Below, piece after piece: positions 276-16,989 of a stretch of DNA of 20,673 bases. The stretch is from a virus: IMG/VR virus record IMGVR_UViG_3300020185_000311, positions 1 through 20,673 of that record, one strand, 5' to 3'. Each line of letters opens with the position of its first letter. Position 1 is the first letter of the stretch. The notes beneath the pieces were generated by a model. It worked only from the letters and a program-made list of their open reading frames with translations. It was not told the origin of the DNA and ran no database searches. The translations under genes were made by a program, and so were the position numbers.

Positions 276-667
276 ATCTTTAATTTATTAATGTTCCAAA
301 ATTTGCCCAGCTCATTTAGCACAAAGTTAAAGTCTGTATTACCTTTCCTCATGCGCCATTGGCCTTTGTAATAATATTTAAAAACCTTACACTCGTGCAA
401 GTGTATAAGTTTGCTGCTATTATACTGTTCATGCGTTACAAACAATACTATAGCTTTTTTAGTATGCCAGCTATCGCATATTCTTTCTAACACTAATTTT
501 TGCCCAGTAGCCATAGCATTATTAATTCTTTTTATTTCAATTAAAATTAATACCTCATTATCAAACTCTAAAACAGCATCAATATCTGTAGGGTGTATAG
601 GGCCGTTCTGTACTCCGGTAAAATCTACTCCCTGTTTAATTTGTCCGCTGTTTCTTATTAATGTCAT
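272..667 (-). CDS. PD-(D/E)XK-superfamily nuclease-like protein
   Basis: The 131-residue product has the core signature of the PD-(D/E)XK nuclease fold. A PTDIDAVLEF segment around residues 26-35 supplies the acidic residue, and an IEIKR strand around residues 43-47 supplies the E-x-K pair. A GQKLVLERICD helix follows, then a strand ending in VTHEQ. These small nuclease-like proteins are common in Bacteroidota phages, and related folds act as Holliday-junction resolvases or structure-specific nucleases. The ATG at 667 overlaps the sigma-like gene's stop as ATGA, so translation is probably coupled. With the NinG-like protein and SSB in the same cluster, a role in recombination or DNA processing is likely. 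The exact substrate cannot be read from the sequence. Confidence 0.7.
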   Translation of the reverse strand: MTLIRNSGQIKQGVDFTGVQNGPIHPTDIDAVLEFDNEVLILIEIKRINNAMATGQKLVLERICDSWHTKKAIVLFVTHEQYNSSKLIHLHECKVFKYYYKGQWRMRKGNTDFNFVLNELGKFWNINKLKI

Positions 668-1161
668 AGTATTTTTTTAAGTTTATCTTTTACTTTTTTA
701 TATGTAAAATAAAGTGCATAGTATTTAATTTTAGATATCCTAGAAAACTCTGCTATAGATTCTCCATCATTTATTATTTCAAAAACCTTTCTATCATACC
801 AGTACATTTTAGCCAGTTCCTTTTCTACCTTATCGTAAGTTTCCTCATAATTAACATCGCTGTAACCATAATAAGTATCCCCATAATTAGCTATATGCTC
901 ATCTAAATCAATAATTTTTATATTCTTTTGTTTTCTTTTTAAATCAATAAATAACGTTTTAAGCGTTTTAAATATATAATAGTAATTTATTTCATCTTTA
1001 TACATTATATCTAAGCCGCCTTTTTCTAATTGTAACTGTATTTTTATATACATTTCCTGCGTAATATCCTCAGCTATTCTTCTAGTGCAGCCAAACGTGC
1101 AAACTATATCAACCCATGTTTCATGCTTTTTAGCTATTAATATTATTTTATCTTGGACCAT
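664..1161 (-). CDS. Sigma-70-like transcription factor (putative)
   Basis: The 165-residue protein resembles small sigma factors. An AEDITQEMYIKIQ segment (residues about 30-42) matches the core-binding helix of region 2, which typically contains D-x-x-Q-E. A following aromatic, basic stretch (about 60-80: YYYIFKTLKTLFIDLKRKQ) fits the rest of region 2. The C-terminal 50 residues (YDRKVFEIINDGESIAEFSRISKI, then Tyr and Lys-rich) look like a region 4 helix-turn-helix. Proteins of this type are often annotated as sigma-like in Bacteroidota phages. The start shares one base with the helicase stop (TAATG) and the end overlaps the next gene as ATGA. It is a candidate to read the unusual promoter-like elements upstream of the structural genes, but this is inference. 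It could instead be another HTH regulator. Confidence 0.6.
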   Translation of the reverse strand: MVQDKIILIAKKHETWVDIVCTFGCTRRIAEDITQEMYIKIQLQLEKGGLDIMYKDEINYYYIFKTLKTLFIDLKRKQKNIKIIDLDEHIANYGDTYYGYSDVNYEETYDKVEKELAKMYWYDRKVFEIINDGESIAEFSRISKIKYYALYFTYKKVKDKLKKIL

Positions 1162-5892: not shown

Positions 5893-8800
5893 CTAATTTT
5901 TACATTTACATTCTTGCTTTAATAAATCTACTTCTGCTTTTAGTTCTTGTATTGACTTAACCAACAAGGGAACTATTTTAGAATAATCAACTGTTTGTGT
6001 ATTAATTTCTCCATTTTCTTTAATAGCATTTTTTTCTCCACCCACTGCTTGTGGTAAAACTTCTTGCAGTTCGTGAGCCATAACACCATAACTTCTTCTA
6101 CCATTTGTTTTCCATTTAAAATCATAGACTTTAATGTTAGAAACTTTTTCTAAACCATTAAAATTTTGTAAATCTTCTTTTAATCTATAATCAGAACTTG
6201 TTGTAAATAAAGTTGCAGTTCCATTAGTTTGTATTTTACCAACAGCACCATCAGTATTAAAATATTCTTGTAAATCAGTTAAATTATTATTATCAGATGT
6301 TTGAACCAAAGTCATTCTTGATTTTGAATCAAATTTAAATCCACTACCAACTAAATTAGATGCACTTGGTACAGATGTCCCTCTAAATAAAATATCCCCC
6401 CCAGATGTTATACGCATTCTTTCTACTGCTGAAGCACCTGTTGCATTAGTAGCAAATATCATATCCTGACCATTAGAGCCACTTGTGTTTATGGTGCTTA
6501 TATAAGAATATCTGTTTGAACCTACATCATCATTTGTATTTGCAGCAAAACCTAACCTTGCTTCTGTGCCAATAGTTGTGCTTTCGTTAACTATAAATAA
6601 AGGCACTGTAGGTTGACCCGCATTAGTACTATGAATTTGAAGTTTTGCAGATACATACTCCGTTCCAATTCCTACTTCCCCCCCAGATGTTATACGCATT
6701 CTTTCTGTGTTATTAGTGCCAAAAACTAAAGGTAAAGCTGATTCAGTTTGCAAACCAGTAGAGCTATTATTGCTGTATAACGAAGCACTTATTGTTCCTC
6801 CATATGATAAATCTACTCTACCAACTGATGTACCATTTATTGTTAAACTTGTATGATTTGTAATACTTCTGGGCGAATCAGTTCCAATTCCTACATTTCC
6901 GTTCCATTGAATCCTCATTCTTTCTGCCACATCCGCTTGACCTCTTGTTGTAAAAGTCATATCATTTCTTAAACCAAACGGGTTTTGATTTACAACTTCT
7001 ATTTTACCCACCTCAAAATCTGCTCCGTGGTCACTATCATCACTTGTAAAACTTATTGTACCAATTATACCTCCAATTTGTGTTACACTATTTAAATCAC
7101 TTGCAAGTATTAATTTACCTGAAACATTAGCAACTTGAGTACGAGGTTTAGACCTTATTATACCATTAACATCAATAGGGTAATTAGGGTCATCAGTACC
7201 TATTCCTACATCCCCTGAATCATCCATCCATACTCTAGTTTGACCACCAGAAACTAAAAACAATTTATCAGTTAAATGTGTATATCCAATTCCACCTCTA
7301 TATTGTTCGTTTCCACTTGTTCCATCAGCAAAATATAAAGCACCACTAGTATCATTTGCAGTAACTATACTCATTCCACCTTCTCCACTATCTTGTTTTA
7401 TAACCAAGTTATCTGCTCCAGAATAATAACTTGTAGGTGTGTCAGTCCCAATAGCTACGTTTCCGTTTCCTGTAACAATTAAATCTGTATTTCCTGAATC
7501 ATCTCTAACTTCAAATGTTTTTCCACTTGCACTATTTCCACCACCTTTAACTAATAAACCATAAGAAGTAGCAGTTGAACCACTATTATTTTCTATTGAA
7601 ACTAAAGGAGAACCTGATGCTGCTGCACCAAGAAATGTTGCACCAACTCCAGTTATATTCCCTGCAAAAGTTGAGTTTCCAGAACTGTCTATTCTTAATC
7701 TTTCTGTGCCACCACCTGAAGCAAAAATCAAATCGTTTGTTGCTCTAACAGCAAAGTTAGTATTACCTGCTGATGCTAAAGAATTAGCATTACCAACAAA
7801 ACCTAAAGTTGCGTTAGTAGTATTTTTCCAAACTGCATACGGTCCATCAGTATCTGTTGTATTTATAGTGAGGGCATCTTGACTACCATTTACAGCTACG
7901 TTTCCTGCAAAAGTTGCATCGCCACCATTTAATATTGAAAATTTTGAAGCTGCTGCAGTGTTATAAACTTCAAAACATTTTGTAGATGTTGCACCTATTA
8001 AACCCCTATTTGTTCCAGCTATATTTAATCCAATTAGAGCAGTTGCACCTCCTGTTCTATTTATAGTTAACGGAGTGACTGAACTTGTAACATTTACTGC
8101 TCCACCAAAAGTTCCGTTTCCAGAAGTTGTTATACTTCCTAAAACATCTAAAACTCCTTGTACATTAGCGCCTGTTTGATTTACAACTAATCTATAAGCA
8201 CCACCATTTGAATCTGCTCTAAAAACTTCTCCTGTAGTTGCTAATACTTCTAACTTTGCATTTCCTGTTTGACCTATTCCTACATCTCCTGAAAAGGATG
8301 CGTTTTGTGAAGTGTCTAAAGTAAGTGCAGTTGTATTATTGGTTAAAAAAGTTAAATTATTAGAATCAGATGTTTTTATATTAAATGCTTTACCTGTAGA
8401 AACTATGTTATGATTAACTGCAGTTAAATTTGTTACAACACTAAAAGAACCCCTGTTAACTGACAAAATATCGCCATCTCCTGTAAAGTTACCTGTACTA
8501 GCTTCAAATCCTGCAACTTGTAAATCTGCTGCTACATAACCTGCACCACCAATATCAACAGTTGTTGTAGGCTCTACTGTTGTGCCTTTAAATAGCTTAA
8601 ATTTATTAGAATCTGATGCGTCAGAAAACAATCCTAAGAATCTATCTGTACCATCATTGTAATCTCCATATAATCCAATGTCTAAACTATTAGCTGTATT
8701 GTCTTTCGCTAATTGTATCAATGGGTCTACTACTGCTAGTGTTTGACTGTTTACAGTTGTTGTTGTTCCGTTTACAGTTAAATCTCCTGCTATTGTAACA

Positions 8801-10641
8801 TCCCTACCAAAACTTGCATCAGCATTTCTTGATATTGTTAATGCTGTTGTGTCTAGTGCGTTTGCATCAGATACTTTAAATAATATTGATTTTGTTACAG
8901 CAGCTTGATTTATATATAAATCTCCTGTATTGTTTTTTAAATAACTATTTGTTGCATCGTGTCCTATTCTTAAATCTCCTGCATCTCCTGCTCTAAACTC
9001 GTTTCCATCATAAACAAAAATACTGCCACCTACAGCTTCTATACTTCCTGATACTTGTACTCCTATGTTTGTAGTTTCAAACTTTTTAGATGCACTATAA
9101 TATAAACTAACTGAACCACCTTCAATAGCAGTTAAATAATTTTCTCCATTAGATGCCCATAATCTTAAATTTGTTCCTTGTAACCTTAATTCTCCTGTGC
9201 CATTATCAACAATCCTACTATTACTACCATCGTGATATATTTCAAGGTCAGAACCTGCACCATAAATAGACTTTACATTATCTCCGTGTAAAGTATCGCC
9301 TGTCATAGTTCCACCTGCTAATGGTAAGAACGAGCCACCACTACCTGTAATTGTGCCTGTTACTGTTAAATCTCCTGTAACTACAGCACCTGCATTACTT
9401 GTATAAAATCTTTCAGTATTATTAAAATATAATTTTACACTAGAATTTTCTATTGCTTGTAATTGTATTTTATTACCTGCTGCATTTGTTATTCTAACTT
9501 CATTAGACCTTATATTTAATAAGCCTGTTCCAGTATCTGCAATAAGTGAATTAGAACCATCGTGGTAAATCTGTAAATCAGAACCTGCACCGAATAAAGC
9601 TTTTCCGTTATCTACAAAAGTTGCATTTGCTCCTACTGATACATTTGTTGTAGTAGATAAAGCACCTGTAATTGCTACACCTGTTGATGAGGTTACTAAT
9701 TTTTCTGCGTTATCATAATAAAGTTGAACAGAACCATTTTCATTAAACCTACCCATAAACTCATCAGTAGTACTTCCTTTAATTCTTACGCTACCAGAAC
9801 CTAATATATTTAAACTTCCAGTACCAACATCTTTAATATAACTACTTATTCCATCGTGAAATATCTCTAAATCACTACCTGTTCCATATATGCTTTTAAC
9901 ATTGTCGTTTAAAACAATATTACCTGTCATTGTACCCCCTGCAAGTGGCAAGAATGAACCACCTGCTCCTGTGATAGTTCCAGTAACTACAAGATTTCCT
10001 GTTACTTTAGAGCCATCTGTTAAAGTTTCAAATCTTTTAACATCATCATAATATAAACTTACTGCACCATTAGTTGCAAAAGTTGCTAAAGTTTCTGTTC
10101 CACTATTAGACTGTATTTCTAAGTCGTTAGTCCAAATTTTTAAAAACCCAGTTCCTACTTCATTAATATAAGAATTAGAGCCATCGTGATAGATTTGTAA
10201 ATCACTTCCTGCTCCGAATATTGCTTTACTAGAATCAGTAAACGTAATGTCATCACTAGCGCTTACTACAATATCATTTCCACCTGTTGTATTTCCGAAA
10301 GATAAAACTTCCTGTAAAGTATCTGAAGTAGCAAATTTACTATCTACATATAGTTTTACAGCAGCACTTGTAGGAAGTGAAGTATTATTATCAAAGTTTT
10401 CTATTCCATCAGTAGAAGTTACGTAACGTGTTATAGTAACGCCTGTGCCTGTATCTTTTAATGAACCCCATTCTAGTATATTACTTACTTTAAAGTCCCC
10501 TGCTGTGTTTAAAAACAGCCCTGATAGGTTGCCTGAGCCATCAGATAGTTCCCTTAATGTAGCATTTAGTACCGCATTATCTACAGTCTTTAATAGGCCT
10601 TCATACGTTGCGGATATTTTAGTGTTAAATAGAGTTGCCAT
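5893..10641 (-). CDS. Tail fibre or spike with S74 intramolecular chaperone
   Basis: This 1582-residue protein is the largest in the window. A short N-terminal segment (about 1-85) would attach to the tail. Five tandem modules of the form GSDLQIYHDGSNSYI with a following GTG-L-I strand lie near residues 152, 261, 360, 470 and 560. A duplicated GGSFLPLAGGTMTG segment lies near 225 and 440. After about 780 it is rich in beta-strand phrases such as VGIGTD-P and ERMRITSGG, typical of trimeric fibres. The last 100 residues are a Peptidase_S74 chaperone. SDYRLK places Ser1483 and Lys1488 at the spacing of the endosialidase Ser-Lys dyad, and MAHELQEVLPQAV plus a C-terminal coiled coil follow. The chaperone should trimerise the fibre and then cleave itself off before Ser1483. 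It would recognise the host surface. Confidence 0.9.
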   Translation of the reverse strand: MATLFNTKISATYEGLLKTVDNAVLNATLRELSDGSGNLSGLFLNTAGDFKVSNILEWGSLKDTGTGVTITRYVTSTDGIENFDNNTSLPTSAAVKLYVDSKFATSDTLQEVLSFGNTTGGNDIVVSASDDITFTDSSKAIFGAGSDLQIYHDGSNSYINEVGTGFLKIWTNDLEIQSNSGTETLATFATNGAVSLYYDDVKRFETLTDGSKVTGNLVVTGTITGAGGSFLPLAGGTMTGNIVLNDNVKSIYGTGSDLEIFHDGISSYIKDVGTGSLNILGSGSVRIKGSTTDEFMGRFNENGSVQLYYDNAEKLVTSSTGVAITGALSTTTNVSVGANATFVDNGKALFGAGSDLQIYHDGSNSLIADTGTGLLNIRSNEVRITNAAGNKIQLQAIENSSVKLYFNNTERFYTSNAGAVVTGDLTVTGTITGSGGSFLPLAGGTMTGDTLHGDNVKSIYGAGSDLEIYHDGSNSRIVDNGTGELRLQGTNLRLWASNGENYLTAIEGGSVSLYYSASKKFETTNIGVQVSGSIEAVGGSIFVYDGNEFRAGDAGDLRIGHDATNSYLKNNTGDLYINQAAVTKSILFKVSDANALDTTALTISRNADASFGRDVTIAGDLTVNGTTTTVNSQTLAVVDPLIQLAKDNTANSLDIGLYGDYNDGTDRFLGLFSDASDSNKFKLFKGTTVEPTTTVDIGGAGYVAADLQVAGFEASTGNFTGDGDILSVNRGSFSVVTNLTAVNHNIVSTGKAFNIKTSDSNNLTFLTNNTTALTLDTSQNASFSGDVGIGQTGNAKLEVLATTGEVFRADSNGGAYRLVVNQTGANVQGVLDVLGSITTSGNGTFGGAVNVTSSVTPLTINRTGGATALIGLNIAGTNRGLIGATSTKCFEVYNTAAASKFSILNGGDATFAGNVAVNGSQDALTINTTDTDGPYAVWKNTTNATLGFVGNANSLASAGNTNFAVRATNDLIFASGGGTERLRIDSSGNSTFAGNITGVGATFLGAAASGSPLVSIENNSGSTATSYGLLVKGGGNSASGKTFEVRDDSGNTDLIVTGNGNVAIGTDTPTSYYSGADNLVIKQDSGEGGMSIVTANDTSGALYFADGTSGNEQYRGGIGYTHLTDKLFLVSGGQTRVWMDDSGDVGIGTDDPNYPIDVNGIIRSKPRTQVANVSGKLILASDLNSVTQIGGIIGTISFTSDDSDHGADFEVGKIEVVNQNPFGLRNDMTFTTRGQADVAERMRIQWNGNVGIGTDSPRSITNHTSLTINGTSVGRVDLSYGGTISASLYSNNSSTGLQTESALPLVFGTNNTERMRITSGGEVGIGTEYVSAKLQIHSTNAGQPTVPLFIVNESTTIGTEARLGFAANTNDDVGSNRYSYISTINTSGSNGQDMIFATNATGASAVERMRITSGGDILFRGTSVPSASNLVGSGFKFDSKSRMTLVQTSDNNNLTDLQEYFNTDGAVGKIQTNGTATLFTTSSDYRLKEDLQNFNGLEKVSNIKVYDFKWKTNGRRSYGVMAHELQEVLPQAVGGEKNAIKENGEINTQTVDYSKIVPLLVKSIQELKAEVDLLKQECKCKN
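9180..10240 (-). repeat. Tandem protein-coding repeats in the tail fibre
   Basis: Four strong copies of a roughly 100-residue module centre on codons for IYHDGSNS or a variant (near 10184, 9857, 9560 and 9230), and a weaker fifth (IGHDATNSYL) lies near 8960. The first four are spaced about 300-330 bases apart. The modules differ in sequence, so they are old duplications, but they keep matching blocks that could recombine. Confidence 0.7.
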
Positions 10642-11237: not shown

Positions 11238-13367
11238 TTATTCTCCTTGAGGGTTTCCGGGCAAAAAGCCCTTGTTTGGTAAGTTTCTAGGTTGTATAGA
11301 TACCTGATAGGGGTTAGTAACCTTATAGCCTAATATAGCGGCCTGTCTAGTACCTATAATATCCTGTGCATCTTTTGTGTTAATCTTTGCGGATTTGCTT
11401 TTATAAGTAACTCTACGCCATGAATGATGACAGTTACCTCCGCCTTTCCAAAGCCATATAGAATACGTATCAGCTCCCTCAGGACCCCAGCCCGGATTCA
11501 CTTTTTGTGTACCCATAGCTATTATATCTTTTTTACGGTATAATTTATTAGCTTGTTTCATGGCCCTGCAAAACTTTCTAGCATTTGCTCCTACTTTTCT
11601 AGGTGCATAATAGTATCTAACTCTAAAATAGTTTTCGCCAATCTTTTTATCTTGCTCAGATTTAGTGTTAGGGTATGCGCTACCGGTACTTACTACAAAT
11701 TTCCACATCTTACCTAGCAATGATAATTTTTCTTGGCTCTGTGCGTTTAATTCATGTATTACCTCATCTATTTTATCATCCTTAGTATAATCTACAGCTT
11801 GGTCATATATAGGTTCCCACTTACTCTCATCTATATCCTCGCCTAAAGCTATTAACTTGGCTGCTACTTCTTCATCATCATTCTGTTCATCTGCTGAGCA
11901 GCATAACCTTTCTACCTTAGACTGCTCTATGCAGTTAGGAACTTCTTTACCATCTTTAATTTTAGTGCCGTATTGTTCGTATCCATCCCAGCATGGCGCT
12001 TTTAACTCCTCGTGGTTCTCGCATGGCATGTAATATACTACACCCTCAACCTCGTGTTCATGGTATCCTTCACATCCTTTTTCTTCTGCAACCTTAATTG
12101 CTTCTTCTTTAGTATCGTAAGCCGTTTTACCATCAATAGTTTTAAGCTCTACCTTAGCAAGCTTACTTTCCATTTCAACACCTGTTTCTTCTTCTATTGT
12201 TTCTTTGTCTTGTATATCAGTATCAACCTCAGTAAACTCTAACGGCTGTAACGTAGTAAAGTATAGGCGTAAGCTTATATCATTGTACGATAGTAGTTTA
12301 TCAAAGCAATCAATTAAAAGCTCTTGAAAGGGCCTTATAACGGTATTATCCATTAATAAACTAGCAGTCTTTATTTCATCTGCATTATTACCCAGTCCGC
12401 TTTGGTCTTTAATACCTAAAAGCATAGGCGATACAATACGATGCGCTACCATTATCTTTTTAGTACTCTCCTCGCTTAGAAACTGATACTGGTTATGTGC
12501 ATCACTAAGCTGTACTGGCGTTATTTCTGCTGAGCTTTCTTTATTATCGTTAAAAGCTAGTATAAACTTACCAGCATTACTAGAGCCTGAGAATTTAGCA
12601 GCTATTTTGTTTTCTATTAATTGCCTTTCCTCTTGATTTGGAGTACCATTATTGAAATTTATGAGCATACTAGGGCTAAGGCCATTCAGTATATTGTTTA
12701 AATGATAGTTACTTACTTCTTCTTCTAGCTCTGCATACTGTAATCCACCTTGATAATCGACAGGACTATAGTAGTAAAAACCTGATTTGTAAGGTTTTAT
12801 GTAATATATTTCTATATTTTCTTTTGACATACCGTAAGCTGGTATTCTTAAAGGCACATCACTACGTTTTATATTAGGCCAATCCTTAAAATAATAATAA
12901 GCCGGCACTTCGCCATCTTCATTAGCCTTTTCAGCCCTTAGGGTTTCTATTGGCATGTGTTCTAGCTGTGCTATTCTTTTTCTATCCTTTGTATAAATAA
13001 CTTGTATAGCGCATTGGCCCATTAACTTTAAATCGTAACACAGTTTTCTTACTACATCTTTTTTAAATAAAGTAATCATTTGCGCATATTCGTTGGGCTT
13101 TTTATTTGCATCTGTAGCATTTAACCCTTTGCCGTAAATAGCCTGACTAATACCGTTGATGGCTGCATTGTTGGTTGGACTACCATTATATCTGTCTATT
13201 AGATACTGGAAATAGTTATTGTCTGCGCCATATTCTATCCAGTCTTTGCCGTTTACTTCTTTTATTTCTGGGCTTGTATATGTGCTTAAATTTACAAAGC
13301 CAAACTGTGATAATTTAGAAGCCTTTTTAAACTGGCCTTTATCATTTCTTAATCGTGTTTTTTTCAT
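11238..13367 (-). CDS. Portal protein with Cys/His-rich C-terminal extension
   Basis: The 709-residue protein begins with a portal-like core (about 40-385): WIEYGADNNYFQYLIDRYNG, NNAAINGISQAIYGKGL and the stretch KKIMVAHRIVSPMLLGI. A dodecamer of this would form the DNA gate at one capsid vertex. After an acidic linker comes an unusual extension. Residues 408-452 include GCEGYHEHE and MPCENH (C432, H436, H438, C449, H452). Residues 458-480 carry CWDGYEQYGTKIKDGKEVPN. Residues 575-655 carry YFRVRYYYAPRKVGANARKF and WGPEGADTYSIWLWKGGGNC followed by HHSW. These are not part of a normal portal and could be a metal-binding or head-internal domain. The start overlaps the 143-residue gene as ATGA. 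Confidence 0.75.
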   Translation of the reverse strand: MKKTRLRNDKGQFKKASKLSQFGFVNLSTYTSPEIKEVNGKDWIEYGADNNYFQYLIDRYNGSPTNNAAINGISQAIYGKGLNATDANKKPNEYAQMITLFKKDVVRKLCYDLKLMGQCAIQVIYTKDRKRIAQLEHMPIETLRAEKANEDGEVPAYYYFKDWPNIKRSDVPLRIPAYGMSKENIEIYYIKPYKSGFYYYSPVDYQGGLQYAELEEEVSNYHLNNILNGLSPSMLINFNNGTPNQEERQLIENKIAAKFSGSSNAGKFILAFNDNKESSAEITPVQLSDAHNQYQFLSEESTKKIMVAHRIVSPMLLGIKDQSGLGNNADEIKTASLLMDNTVIRPFQELLIDCFDKLLSYNDISLRLYFTTLQPLEFTEVDTDIQDKETIEEETGVEMESKLAKVELKTIDGKTAYDTKEEAIKVAEEKGCEGYHEHEVEGVVYYMPCENHEELKAPCWDGYEQYGTKIKDGKEVPNCIEQSKVERLCCSADEQNDDEEVAAKLIALGEDIDESKWEPIYDQAVDYTKDDKIDEVIHELNAQSQEKLSLLGKMWKFVVSTGSAYPNTKSEQDKKIGENYFRVRYYYAPRKVGANARKFCRAMKQANKLYRKKDIIAMGTQKVNPGWGPEGADTYSIWLWKGGGNCHHSWRRVTYKSKSAKINTKDAQDIIGTRQAAILGYKVTNPYQVSIQPRNLPNKGFLPGNPQGE

Positions 13368-13795
13368 CTTACTGTATAAGTGTTATTATAACCGCTATAG
13401 TGCGTGTATTGGCCTTTATTTAGTTTATAGTAATCATTTTGATTTAATTGGTCCACATCTTGGTCTGTGCAGAAAATTTTATCGTTATAAATATCCACCA
13501 TTTGCCCTTCATCTTCATTCCATTTAACCTCATAAAAATTCCAAAGACTATAATTAGTGTTCCAAAAATTAAAGTCAATATAAAGTCTTAAATCAAAAAA
13601 ATGGTTTTCTACTAAAACTGGATTGAAAACATTATCAAACGTTAAATAATTACCAGCAATAGTAGCTGCGAATATATCGTATTGCTTTACTACATTAGTA
13701 CTATCATCCCTAATATCCATGCTAAAAGAAGCACTATATTCTCTAGGAATTACTGAAAGCGTTTGAGCCGCAGCCGAAGTAGTTAAAATTATCAT
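13364..13795 (-). CDS. Beta-rich structural protein next to the portal (143 aa, unknown role)
   Basis: The product starts MIILTTSAAAQTLSVIPREY and is beta-rich with many aromatic residues (FFDLRLYIDFNFWNTNYSLW), a composition typical of virion proteins. It ends in a short polar segment with the stretch KGQYTHYSGYNNTYTVR. Related short proteins with a MIxL-TT start sit beside portal or connector genes in other Bacteroidota phages, from memory. It is the first gene of a separate transcription unit, because a terminator and then a TACAAA-N17-TTATAT element lie directly upstream. The element ends 6 bases before the ATG. Its stop overlaps the portal start. It may be a tail-completion or capsid decoration protein. 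Confidence 0.6.
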   Translation of the reverse strand: MIILTTSAAAQTLSVIPREYSASFSMDIRDDSTNVVKQYDIFAATIAGNYLTFDNVFNPVLVENHFFDLRLYIDFNFWNTNYSLWNFYEVKWNEDEGQMVDIYNDKIFCTDQDVDQLNQNDYYKLNKGQYTHYSGYNNTYTVR

Positions 13796-13801
13796 ACACT
13801 T

Positions 13802-13830
13802 ATATAACGTAAATAATAGGGTTATTTGTA
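13802..13830 (-). promoter_or_regulatory. Phage promoter-like element TACAAA-N17-TTATAT (copy 1)
   Basis: On the minus strand TACAAA and TTATAT are 17 bases apart, with CG directly before TTATAT. Two other copies share this layout. The element lies between the terminator at 13843-13874 and the start at 13795, as expected for a promoter that restarts transcription. The A of the ATG is the seventh base after TTATAT, so a transcript would have essentially no leader. Confidence 0.6.
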
Positions 13831-13842
13831 GAAGTGTCCACC

Positions 13843-13874
13843 TAAAAAAAAAAGCACCCTATAAAGAGTGCTTA
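13843..13874 (-). terminator. Intrinsic terminator after the tail tube gene
   Basis: On the minus strand AAGCACTC and GGGTGCTT form a stem with one G:U pair around a short AT-rich loop, followed by about ten T. It lies about 30 bases past the stop of the tail tube-like gene and divides the structural genes into two transcription units. Confidence 0.8.
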
Positions 13875-13903
13875 ATTTACTAACTAAAAATTAATGATTA
13901 TTA

Positions 13904-14446
13904 TTATGGTATTACCGGCACACCAACTGGCGTTGGGTCTATTTGTGCTGGGTCCCCTGTTACTGCTGATGCTAAGAAATACGGTGCGTATTCTTCTAAG
14001 CCTTCAAAAGTAAGTGTAAATCCTGATAAATCTCCAGCCGCTGCTCCTGTTACAACAGTTCCGCCTGTGCATTCCATTCCATTTTCAAATCCGCATAAAA
14101 AGCTATTTCCGTAATAATCTTCTACAACTATGTAAGGTCTAGCTACTGCAAGCACTTGTAATTCTGCTTGAGTTTGTGCATCTAAGAAAGTTAATGTTAA
14201 ATTAAGTGTTTGGGTGTAAAAAGTAGTTCCATTCTCTCTACTGCTTGTAACAGTAGTTTCAAGGCTAGAATTTCCCTTTACATCATATTCGTAATAAGTA
14301 GGGCTACCTGTAACAGTAGCTTCTTTAGTAGTTGAATCAATACTTACTCCTGTTAATGAGCCAAAGTCAGCGAAATATACTTTTTTTATTCCGCCAAAAG
14401 CTGATTTACAAGGTATTTTTCTACCTGTTGTTAATGTACATGCCAT
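13904..14446 (-). CDS. Major tail (tube) protein (putative)
   Basis: The product is about 180 residues from the start chosen here. It begins MACTLTTGRKIPCKSAFGG and continues with beta-rich stretches (VYFADFGSLTGVSI, TTFYTQTLNLTLTF), a GNSFLCGFENGMECTGG segment and a terminal SGFTLTFEGLEEYAPYF. This pattern is common for proteins downstream of the capsid gene in Bacteroidota phages, and I regard it as the tail tube protein that polymerises around the tape measure. A longer frame starts at 14500, but its extra 18 codons overlap a hairpin and do not look conserved, so I prefer 14446. Four cysteines are present, which is unusual for a tube protein. Confidence 0.6.
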   Translation of the reverse strand: MACTLTTGRKIPCKSAFGGIKKVYFADFGSLTGVSIDSTTKEATVTGSPTYYEYDVKGNSSLETTVTSSRENGTTFYTQTLNLTLTFLDAQTQAELQVLAVARPYIVVEDYYGNSFLCGFENGMECTGGTVVTGAAAGDLSGFTLTFEGLEEYAPYFLASAVTGDPAQIDPTPVGVPVIP

Positions 14447-14470
14447 TTGATATATATTTTGTAACCTACA

Positions 14471-14498
14471 GAGTATCAGGTTTTTACGCCCAATACTC
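14471..14498 (-). other. Hairpin in the leader of the tail tube gene
   Basis: GAGTAT pairs with ATACTC, and after a two-base mismatch GG pairs with CC around an 8-base loop. It lies between the capsid gene and the preferred tail tube start. No T-run follows, so it is not a terminator. It might stabilise or process the mRNA to adjust the capsid-to-tube ratio. Confidence 0.4.
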
Positions 14499-14518
14499 AT
14501 TCAGTTGATTAATTAATT

Positions 14519-15499
14519 TTAAGCGTACTCAACAATGTCAGAAGCGATTCCAAATTGTACCGCAGAAGTAAATCTCATTACCATTCTCACATTATTTGAA
14601 GCATCTAAATCCTGCATATCAAGAACCTTGATAGCATTTGTGTCATTTAGAAGTCCAGTTCCAAAATATAAGTTGCTACGTTGTGCAGCATACATTTTGT
14701 TCGCTGAAAGACCCGGACAAACAAAGATTTTAACTCCGTTTACAGTTAGTGAACCGTTGTTCCACCATTGCGTACCTTGTGCGTTTGTACCATTCGCTCC
14801 TAATCCGTTTGCTGCAAATCCTCCTAATGCTTGTACGTAAAATTTCGCTGCTGCACTACCTATGTATAAGAATAAATCTTCCTTACCATATAGGGCTGCT
14901 GGAATTGCATCTACAACCTTAGATAATTCTGCTATGATATTTCCTGCATTTAATCCACCTGCTACTGCTGCAACTTGTTGTCCTGCTGGAATATCGCCTG
15001 CTGCTGCTGATGCTGCAATAAGTTTTTCAAAACCATCAAAAGAGTTATTTGTTGCTGCTGCTGTATCTCCTTGCCATATACAGAACTCTGTATTTTGCGC
15101 TACTTCTGCTGCAACATGTGCAATAAGGAAGTCAGAGAATTTAGGCGGTAAAGATTGTCCTAAACCAAATCCCATTTGCTGACTTTCCCAGTCATTTACA
15201 AAGTCATATTTACATAACTGTAGATTAACTTGTAATTCAACTGGTTGAATAATTCTTTCTGTAAGTGTTACAGAACTGTTTGGTGTAAAGTCGCATGATG
15301 CTGGGCTTACTAAAGCTCCAGTAGCTAGTTTTTTAATTACTTCTTTAAAAGCGATATTTGCTTTTACAGTTAAACCGCCGTCATCGATTGTCGAAGCCGA
15401 CAAAAGAGCTGCTGCGATGTACTCCCCTGCGAATTGACCGGCATAAGTCGTTGTGATATTTACCGCTGTCGCTAATTTTACATTTTTAAGATTGCTCAT
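14519..15499 (-). CDS. Major capsid protein (HK97-fold, putative)
   Basis: The 326-residue product fits a major capsid protein in length and position, directly after protease and scaffold-like genes. It starts MSNLKNVKLATAVNITTTYA and contains long Ala/Gly-rich helices (FEKLIAASAAAGDIPAGQQV), an aromatic KYDFVNDWESQQMGFGLGQS segment, and a C-terminal VRMVMRFTSAVQFGIASDIV typical of the P domain of HK97-like capsid proteins. It also has a GVKIFVCPGLSANKMYAAQR strand-turn-strand. It would form the icosahedral shell. The gene begins 7 bases after the scaffold-like stop and ends 18 bases before the longer tail tube frame. Confidence 0.8.
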   Translation of the reverse strand: MSNLKNVKLATAVNITTTYAGQFAGEYIAAALLSASTIDDGGLTVKANIAFKEVIKKLATGALVSPASCDFTPNSSVTLTERIIQPVELQVNLQLCKYDFVNDWESQQMGFGLGQSLPPKFSDFLIAHVAAEVAQNTEFCIWQGDTAAATNNSFDGFEKLIAASAAAGDIPAGQQVAAVAGGLNAGNIIAELSKVVDAIPAALYGKEDLFLYIGSAAAKFYVQALGGFAANGLGANGTNAQGTQWWNNGSLTVNGVKIFVCPGLSANKMYAAQRSNLYFGTGLLNDTNAIKVLDMQDLDASNNVRMVMRFTSAVQFGIASDIVEYA

Positions 15500-15506
15500 T
15501 TTTTTA

Positions 15507-16148
15507 TTATTTGTTTAATTTATTTAATACTCTATCTAGTGTTGTGTTAAACCTACCTTTTGCAAATTCAACTTTTTTTGTATTGCTAACAGCTTCCGGA
15601 TTATGCTTAATTGGTTTTGCTGCTGGTTCCTCAGAAAATTCTTCTTTGATAGTTCTTGATTTTGGTTGTCTAGAAGTTTCATCTTCCATTTCTACTTCCT
15701 TATCTTCTTCTTCCATTTTATTTTCCTTATCCCCTTTTAAGTCAGCTATAGCATCTTCAAGGTTTTGTATCCTTTTTTCCATGCCTTCCCAGTCTCCTAC
15801 TTCTGCCATTTTCTTTTCTTCTTTGTCATCTCCGTACTCATCTTCATCTTTTAAATCAGAAGTAATTTCTTCTCCTTCTTTATCTTCTTTAGCTGGTACT
15901 TCATCTGAAACTTCTCTAACATCATCTATTCTTCCTTCCTCAGCAACAACAACTAAGCGGCCATCTTCTAATAGGTATTCTCCTACTGGCATGGCTACTT
16001 TCTCATCATCTGTTACAATGAAAATTTCTTTGCCTTTTTCAAAAGACTCTGCACTTACTATAGTGCCGTTTTCTAGTTTTGTTTCTTCAAGTTTTACTTC
16101 TATGTTTAGAAGCGTTTTAATTTGATTTAACATTTCGGTTGATTTCAT
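15507..16148 (-). CDS. Acidic scaffold-like protein
   Basis: The 213-residue product has an N-terminal domain (LENGTIVSAESFEKGKEIF, then VAMPVGEYLLEDGRLVVVAE) found, from memory, beside capsid genes in many Bacteroidota phages. A very acidic region (about 85-165) includes a coiled coil (WEGMEKRIQNLEDAIADLKG). A basic C-terminal end (FNTTLDRVLNKLNK) could bind capsid protein. Charge pattern, coiled coil and position between the maturation protease and capsid genes suggest a capsid assembly scaffold that the protease removes. The listed start has a promoter-like element 8 bases upstream. An ATG five codons later is possible and would give a short leader. Confidence 0.65.
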   Translation of the reverse strand: MKSTEMLNQIKTLLNIEVKLEETKLENGTIVSAESFEKGKEIFIVTDDEKVAMPVGEYLLEDGRLVVVAEEGRIDDVREVSDEVPAKEDKEGEEITSDLKDEDEYGDDKEEKKMAEVGDWEGMEKRIQNLEDAIADLKGDKENKMEEEDKEVEMEDETSRQPKSRTIKEEFSEEPAAKPIKHNPEAVSNTKKVEFAKGRFNTTLDRVLNKLNK

Positions 16149-16155
16149 ATTATAT

Positions 16156-16184
16156 ATATAACGGTTATTAATTACTATTTTGTA
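16156..16184 (-). promoter_or_regulatory. Phage promoter-like element TACAAA-N17-TTATAT (copy 2)
   Basis: The minus strand carries TACAAA and TTATAT exactly 17 bases apart, with CCG before TTATAT. The next ATG is 8 bases from the box, at the start of the scaffold-like gene. AATACAAAAT at the upstream end is identical to copy 3. Confidence 0.6.
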
Positions 16185-16193
16185 TTTTCAGTT

Positions 16194-16355
16194 CTAAGTT
16201 CTTGTAATAACTCCTATACCTTGCGCTCGCATAGAACCATCGCAGCACTTAATAGAATAGGTGTTTGTATCCCAACACAAACAGGCCCTACTGCTTCCAA
16301 CCGGACTAGTTCTACTGGGTATAAATACGCCTTTACTTTTGTTATTCTGTCGCAT
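16194..16355 (-). CDS. Cys-rich small phage protein (53 aa)
   Basis: A 53-codon frame starts MRQNNKSKGVFIPSRT and carries RACLCWDTNTYSIKCCDG, followed by SMRAQGIGVI. Four cysteines in C-x-C and C-C pairs suggest a small zinc-binding or disulfide-linked structure. From memory, related short proteins (CxC...CCDG...QGIG) occur among structural genes of Bacteroidota phages, with unknown role. The start lies 14 bases inside the end of the protease gene, so translation is probably coupled, and the stop is just upstream of promoter-like copy 2. Position between protease and scaffold genes suggests a minor virion component. Confidence 0.7.
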   Translation of the reverse strand: MRQNNKSKGVFIPSRTSPVGSSRACLCWDTNTYSIKCCDGSMRAQGIGVITRT

Positions 16356-16956
16356 TATTATCGTTTGTTAAAAGCTCTTTAATTTTATTAAGTATAATAT
16401 CATTTTCTGAAAAATCCTCTTTAATTTTTTCTTTAGGTCTTTCCATTTTATCAGCAAAATAGCCTTCTATTGAGAATCCTTTTACCTTATTTGTTTTAAC
16501 ATATTCACTCCATACTTCATCGTTATTTACTTTTACAGCACCCATCCAAGTTCCTACTGGAACATTAAGCCCATACTTTCTAGACTTATCTTGGGTTTCA
16601 CTTTCAACTATCCAACTCTCAACTAACGTCAAACCATTCAAGGCCTGAGCGTGTTCAAGAGTTGAATTGTTTTGGTAACCGTTTTTTAAAAACATTTGCG
16701 ATGCTTTTACTATTGTATCTTTAGAAAAGAAAATGTAGTATTCTTCTCCTTCATCTCCTTTTCTGTATATTGGTTTATTAGGTATCAATAAAGCACCTAA
16801 TAATATTTTTTTCTCTTTATCTATTTCTGCTAGCTTTATTTCTTCTGAATTTAAAGCAACAAAATCAGACTCTATGGCAGGGCTTTCAACTATACTTATA
16901 GCTTCTATTCCTGCATCCTCTTGTTCCTCATCTAATATTAATTCTACTATTCTCAT
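16342..16956 (-). CDS. Capsid maturation protease, XkdF-like (S78-type)
   Basis: The 204-residue product matches the XkdF/Peptidase_S78_2 family. An N-terminal segment (GIEAISIVESPAIESDFVAL) is followed by the protease core: GALLIPNKPIYRKG, EEYYIFFSKDTIVKA, NNSTLEHAQAL with the likely catalytic His102, LVESWIVESETQDKS, VPVGTWMGAVKVNNDEVWSE and VKGFSIEGYF with the likely nucleophile Ser162. It would cleave scaffold and capsid proteins during head maturation. The acidic tail (IKEDFSENDIILNK) may be a scaffold-like part. A TACAAA-N17-TTATAT element sits 4 bases before the ATG. The Cys-rich gene overlaps the end by 14 bases. Confidence 0.85.
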   Translation of the reverse strand: MRIVELILDEEQEDAGIEAISIVESPAIESDFVALNSEEIKLAEIDKEKKILLGALLIPNKPIYRKGDEGEEYYIFFSKDTIVKASQMFLKNGYQNNSTLEHAQALNGLTLVESWIVESETQDKSRKYGLNVPVGTWMGAVKVNNDEVWSEYVKTNKVKGFSIEGYFADKMERPKEKIKEDFSENDIILNKIKELLTNDNNATE

Positions 16957-16960
16957 AATT

Positions 16961-16989
16961 ATATAACGTATTTAAAATTCAATTTTGTA
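16961..16989 (-). promoter_or_regulatory. Phage promoter-like element TACAAA-N17-TTATAT (copy 3)
   Basis: The minus strand reads TACAAA, 17 bases, then TTATAT, with CG directly before the second box. It fills the gap between the tape measure stop and the protease start, whose A is the fifth base after TTATAT. Confidence 0.6.

Follow-up and report, generated by a model that had tools for sequence, protein, structure and literature searches.

A putative two-box promoter class abutting the start codons of virion genes in marine flavobacterial phages and its candidate phage-encoded ECF-type sigma factor

Phage-encoded sigma factors are known to control middle or late genes, as exemplified by gp55 of T4 and gp28/gp34 of SPO1 (PMC9429907), and the phages phiEco32 and 7-11 encode ECF-like sigma factors with promoters of their own (PMC4331800, PMC7881722). 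In general, ECF-dependent promoters are marked by AAC in the -35 box and CGT in the -10 box, EcfG being associated with AAC and CGTT, and ECF sigma factors recognise one flipped-out base at -10 (PMC8103513). Leaderless genes whose open reading frame (ORF) directly adjoins a -10 box have been described in Deinococcus-Thermus and were detected in one of 37 Bacteroidetes/Chlorobi genomes (PMC12340547; PMC3160421). ECF-like sigma factors of phages are thus not without precedent; of a promoter class of Bacteroidota phages that combines two boxes with direct adjacency to the start codon, no description was found in the literature searched, which comprised papers available without subscription.

The window, i.e. 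the whole stretch of 20,673 nucleotides analysed here, is a 20.7 kb virus record that represents a fragment of a marine flavobacterial phage, with genes including those for a protease, a portal protein, an endolysin and a holin. The window portal was matched in three bins, one of them assigned to Flavobacteriaceae and another to Polaribacter, and these assignments give a hint of the hosts. A sequence-only reading of the window had pointed out three copies of TACAAA-N17-TTATAT on the minus strand, and these were found exactly at the proposed sites and nowhere else in the window, at a chance expectation of 0.01 in dinucleotide shuffles, none of which (0/100) reached three copies. Copy 1 (16961..16989, with TACAAA at 16984-16989 and CGTTATAT at 16961-16968) lies 4 bases upstream of the ATG at 16956, copy 2 (16156..16184) 7 bases upstream of that at 16148 and copy 3 (13802..13830) 6 bases upstream of that at 13795, each counted from TTATAT. 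Each of these codons is indeed the first possible start of its frame, there being no earlier start codon in the three reading frames. Likewise, CG directly precedes TTATAT in 3/3 copies, and the common upstream-end sequence ascribed to two of them was recovered as AATACAAAAT in the 16156 and 16961 copies. When two mismatches were allowed, 20 matches were obtained in the window versus 12.6 by chance, which is only marginally above expectation; thus, the signal resides in the strict form. That the elements do not match the Bacteroidota housekeeping promoter could also be confirmed, since TAnnTTTG, its box at -7, occurs in none of the three, and a search for TTG-N17-23-TAnnTTTG gave no match in the window.

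The genes behind the three elements are likewise encoded on the minus strand and would be organised in three transcription units. The first would be opened by the gene of the head maturation protease (Peptidase_S78_2; 16342..16956) and the second by that of a putative scaffold (15507..16148), followed by the gene of the probable major capsid protein (14519..15499), which matches phrog_11320 and phrog_1623, a virion structural protein, and by that of a phrog_19091 protein of unknown function (13904..14500). The third unit would consist of a small conserved gene, henceforth termed the pre-portal gene (13364..13795), and the portal gene (11238..13367). The family phrog_24921 is matched by the protease in its own positions 10-182 and by the scaffold candidate in its positions 204-276, both counted along phrog_24921. 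The last gene of the second unit lies upstream of a terminator-like intrinsic hairpin with a T run (13852..13873, minus strand), which would end this unit directly upstream of copy 3, in keeping with the earlier claim that one copy follows a terminator. The position of the T run is conserved in most relatives, and GGGTGC precedes it wherever the compared sequence extends that far. Between the protease gene and copy 2, a small ORF (about 53 aa, MRQNNKSKGVFIPSRTSP...) was read by eye at 16191-16352 of the window on the minus strand. Furthermore, an ORF of 1582 residues (5893-10641, minus strand) contains repeated 'DLQIYHDGSNS'-like motifs and displays a C-terminus resembling a tail-fibre chaperone domain.

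Searches with the window portal and with the gene at 664-1161 retrieved about 160 related, uncultured contigs. In these relatives TACAAA-N17-TTATAT is frequent at the N17 spacing and oriented with the genes, and CAAA-N15-CGTTATA occurs at 123 distinct sites, as opposed to 0-4 sites at control gaps of 10-14 and 16-22 and five sites at gap 15 in the reversed control. An ATG start is located 4-8 bases past CGTTATAT in 114 of 118 sites. When the sequences upstream of homologous starts were read with no motif required, three non-homologous genes proved to be preceded by [AG]CAAA and, after a 15-base spacer of drifting sequence, by CGTTATA immediately upstream of ATG. In addition, a matrix was built from 112 homologous sites selected on CGTTA, so that its first -10 columns are fixed by construction, and a scan of ten related records with this matrix detected 3-5 sites each versus 0-1 in reversed sequence. 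These sites nearly always precede the same four genes, namely the protease, putative scaffold and pre-portal genes as well as, in most records, a 216-residue gene opening the tail block. In one record (G012), four sites split a single co-directed block downstream of the terminase genes, which proceeds from tail genes via protease, scaffold, capsid and portal to the fibre. In the window, the fourth promoter, upstream of the first tail-block gene, would be expected past the right end of the fragment. The element is thus conserved in front of structural genes of related phages, and the motif does not exceed control level in shuffles, in reversed phage sequence and in 100 Flavobacteriaceae genomes. 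Among the matches listed in an exact scan of viral contigs for TACAAA-N15-CGTTATAT, 52 of 88 distinct sites are of this typical kind, and most of the remaining ones look like chance matches. In distant records, CGTTATA-N6-ATG with one mismatch was not separable from the reversed control because the boxes vary there. Two side observations from the related contigs concern CAAA-N9-CGTTATA, which has 15 distinct sites at this gap of 9 versus two in reversed sequence, and weaker extra copies of the element (G001:27518 and G010:4786) upstream of two genes (195 and 197 aa) whose first residues look ParB-like.

The alignment of homologous sites also affects the box boundaries: the copies and their spacing stand as proposed, but TTATAT does not hold as the -10 box, and the first bases assigned to the -35 box vary, with either A or G before CAAA. 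Since CAAA and CGTTATATA are invariant or nearly so, and the gap of 15 is fixed, in the matrix of 112 homologous sites, the -10 box is to be read as CGTTATA(TA) instead. Judged by these aligned sites, the element is better described as [AG]CAAA-N15-CGTTATATA-N3-7-ATG.

Beyond the window group, the element occurs in variant forms. In Nonlabens phage P12024S, for which no promoter description was found in the literature, AACAAA-N14-CGTTAATATA-ATG precedes four genes, with departures in two of the four, and other subgroups have variants of their own, often with AACA at -35. Among 17 subgroup representatives, protease and pre-portal promoters are more similar within genomes (mean 19.8) than between genomes (12.6), a result reached in 0 of 20,000 permutations. 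The similarity of the two promoters exceeded that of shuffled sequence at p < 0.05 in 11/17 subgroups, and a significant shared element was not seen between the two promoters tested in 6/17. As variant elements common to unrelated promoters of one genome point to a common trans-acting factor, this co-variation of sequences supports such a factor without naming it, with a contribution from the shared ancestry of neighbouring subgroups, several of which share CGTTATAT. In one relative without a detected sigma homologue (L249, record G043), two late genes are preceded by another repeated element, CCACTAATAAA. GTACAAA-N15-CGTTATATA was also encountered in unrelated large phages, namely in 12 copies in G049 (IMGVR_UViG_3300028591_000094, 168 kb), nine in G050 (29 kb) and at least one in L381. 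The copies in G049 and G050 are mostly located 18-77 bases upstream of ORFs, the reversed control of both records being free of copies, and G049 encodes two sigma-70 proteins, both larger than ECF size. This suggests a convergent or shared promoter grammar. Moreover, because a near-identical element exists in unrelated phages whose sigma genes are not of ECF size, the element alone cannot identify its reader.

As reader of the elements, a gene at 664..1161 on the minus strand is proposed, which is missing from the sequence-only reading and encodes a candidate ECF-type sigma factor of 165 aa with predicted sigma2 and sigma4 domains. Sequence searches with the protein itself in Pfam, PHROG and PDB were without match. 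It is conserved among 35 orthologues, 11 of which gave weak matches to Pfam Sigma70_r2 (best 8.6e-4), and P12024S gp33 shows Sigma-70 region 2 above the Pfam cut-off. Its AlphaFold model (mean pLDDT 81, pTM 0.46) matched ECF sigma factors first among known structures, including E. coli sigmaE (1or7, Z 10.5), and was superimposed on sigmaE region 4 on DNA (2h27) with Z 9.7 and 1.7 A over 63 residues; the best E-value in Foldseek was only 1.1e-3. ECF sigma factors comprise only sigma2 and sigma4, connected by a linker of fewer than 50 residues, and in the model helices 2-76 and 105-164 correspond to sigma2 and sigma4 of sigmaE, with a linker of about 28 residues between them, the arrangement of the two domains being uncertain owing to the pTM of only 0.46. 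The sigma gene is present in 15 of 19 related records; in the wider group, a homologue was found in 12 of 26 records, for the most part longer ones. Fragments can lack the gene by chance. Searching GTDB genomes with the sigma profile gave no confirmed relative. Many, though not all, ECF sigma factors are co-transcribed with an anti-sigma factor and regulate themselves positively. The neighbours of 664-1161 are a gene for an AAA_25 ATPase and an ORF in the position of the VRR-NUC gene, neither of which is named as anti-sigma. Regarding positive autoregulation, no element was found upstream of 1161, and the matrix has only three matches in the window. No single-subunit phage RNA polymerase (PF00940) was detected in 14 records, a result of little weight as the control was also without match, and none is annotated in the first 25 kb of P12024S.

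In the proposed mechanism, the phage ECF-type sigma factor encoded at 664-1161 would bind host core RNA polymerase, with its sigma4 domain reading the -35 box [AG]CAAA and its sigma2 domain melting the -10 box CGTTATA, 15 bases from the -35 box. Transcription would then start at, or a few bases from, the A of ATG, so that each unit, i.e. protease, scaffold with capsid, and pre-portal gene with portal, the last one behind the terminator, would open with a leaderless or nearly leaderless mRNA. If the second T of CGTT corresponds to the flipped-out base, an alignment we presume from E. coli sigmaE, the A of ATG would be placed between -1 and +4, which we infer to leave a leader of about 0-3 bases. 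With respect to ECF hallmarks, CGT is present in the -10 box of upstream sequences that had not been selected for it, and the box spacing is fixed at a gap of 15; AAC is absent from the -35 box of the window group, which carries [AG]CAAA, while AACA is found in P12024S and several other subgroups. Judging from their sequence and position, the elements are almost certainly active promoters. The view of a phage-specific promoter class is sustained by conservation before structural genes and by the lack of host enrichment, and the attribute late, which derives from the genes served, is very likely to be correct. That the 664-1161 sigma factor reads these promoters is reasonably likely, and a leaderless start may be expected with the same degree of confidence; as a whole, the explanation of a virion-gene promoter class read by a phage ECF-type sigma factor and giving rise to (nearly) leaderless mRNAs appears likely.

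The near-identical GTACAAA-N15-CGTTATATA in G049 and G050, neither of which was found to encode an ECF sigma factor, would fit promoters read by an alternative sigma factor of the host, or by host polymerase together with another phage protein, in which case the sigma-like gene would serve other genes. Such a reader is unlikely, given that CAAA-N15-CGTTATATA is not enriched in the 100 Flavobacteriaceae genomes (15 matches, fewer than in the reversed control) and that changes of the element between phage subgroups are concerted; one CAAA-N15-CGTTATATA match, in G046, has phage-type sequence. Furthermore, a sigma homologue is present in most longer records of the wider group, and two records of 28-30 kb without homologue are also devoid of a CGTT element before these genes. 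In related records, host-type TTG/TAnnTTTG sites are located upstream of a number of small genes that do not belong to the virion block (96 matches versus 59 in reversed sequence, a modest contrast), as expected if early genes use host sigma.

Bacteroidota mostly lack Shine-Dalgarno signals, and an element only 4-8 bases from ATG might therefore act in RNA as a translation signal. This is very improbable, however, since conservation extends 30 bases upstream in the form of two boxes that keep a constant distance although the spacer between them drifts, genes inside the units are not preceded by the element, and a terminator is located directly upstream of copy 3. In addition, its occurrence 18-77 bases before ORFs in the unrelated phages G049 and G050 fits a signal in DNA and not one in translation. 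In principle, an operator function is conceivable for any bipartite site, yet binding sites for a regulator, a packaging or a replication protein would hardly be found exclusively at presumed transcription-unit starts with fixed orientation to the genes and fixed start-codon distance, which renders this the least probable of the explanations considered.

On a broader scale, chances are slightly in favour of a widespread lineage of flavobacterial phages that possesses its own ECF-type sigma factor and about four co-evolving promoters with a -10 box abutting the start codon and leaderless first genes, and in which sigma factor and promoters diversify together between subgroups. If true, this would provide a predicted sigma-promoter pair for an abundant and almost uncultured group of marine phages, with P12024S as one cultured relative where the pairing can be tested. 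The many natural variants constitute a data set on changes of -35 and -10 specificity in small sigma factors; the leaderless genes would represent a test case for leaderless translation in Bacteroidota, a phylum with poorly understood start signals.

Compared with described systems, the candidate sigma factor shares with T4 gp55 and SPO1 gp28/gp34 that it is encoded by the phage, although these belong to other sigma lineages with other promoter sequences. A close analogy is offered by phiEco32 and 7-11, where a small phage sigma factor brings host polymerase to promoters of the phage, the late ones before structural genes, as is proposed here. On the other hand, the described consensus of phiEco32 is a single box, TAATGTATA, in contrast to two boxes of other sequence with a 15-base gap, and the present phages infect Bacteroidota and have the -10 box abutting the start codon. 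Canonical ECF promoters are matched by CGT at -10 (CGTT as for EcfG), by fixed spacing and, in several relatives, by AACA at -35, while the window group deviates in its -35 core [AG]CAAA, no gene next to the sigma gene is named as anti-sigma and no autoregulation was seen. The -10 box immediately before the start codon is reminiscent of leaderless genes in Deinococcus-Thermus, which, however, are cellular genes with Pribnow-like boxes. Finally, in P12024S, gp33 with its Sigma-70 region 2 constitutes the positional counterpart of the window sigma gene, adjoining the VRR-NUC gene, whereas the sigma proteins are only 19-25% identical and the element of P12024S is spaced one base differently.
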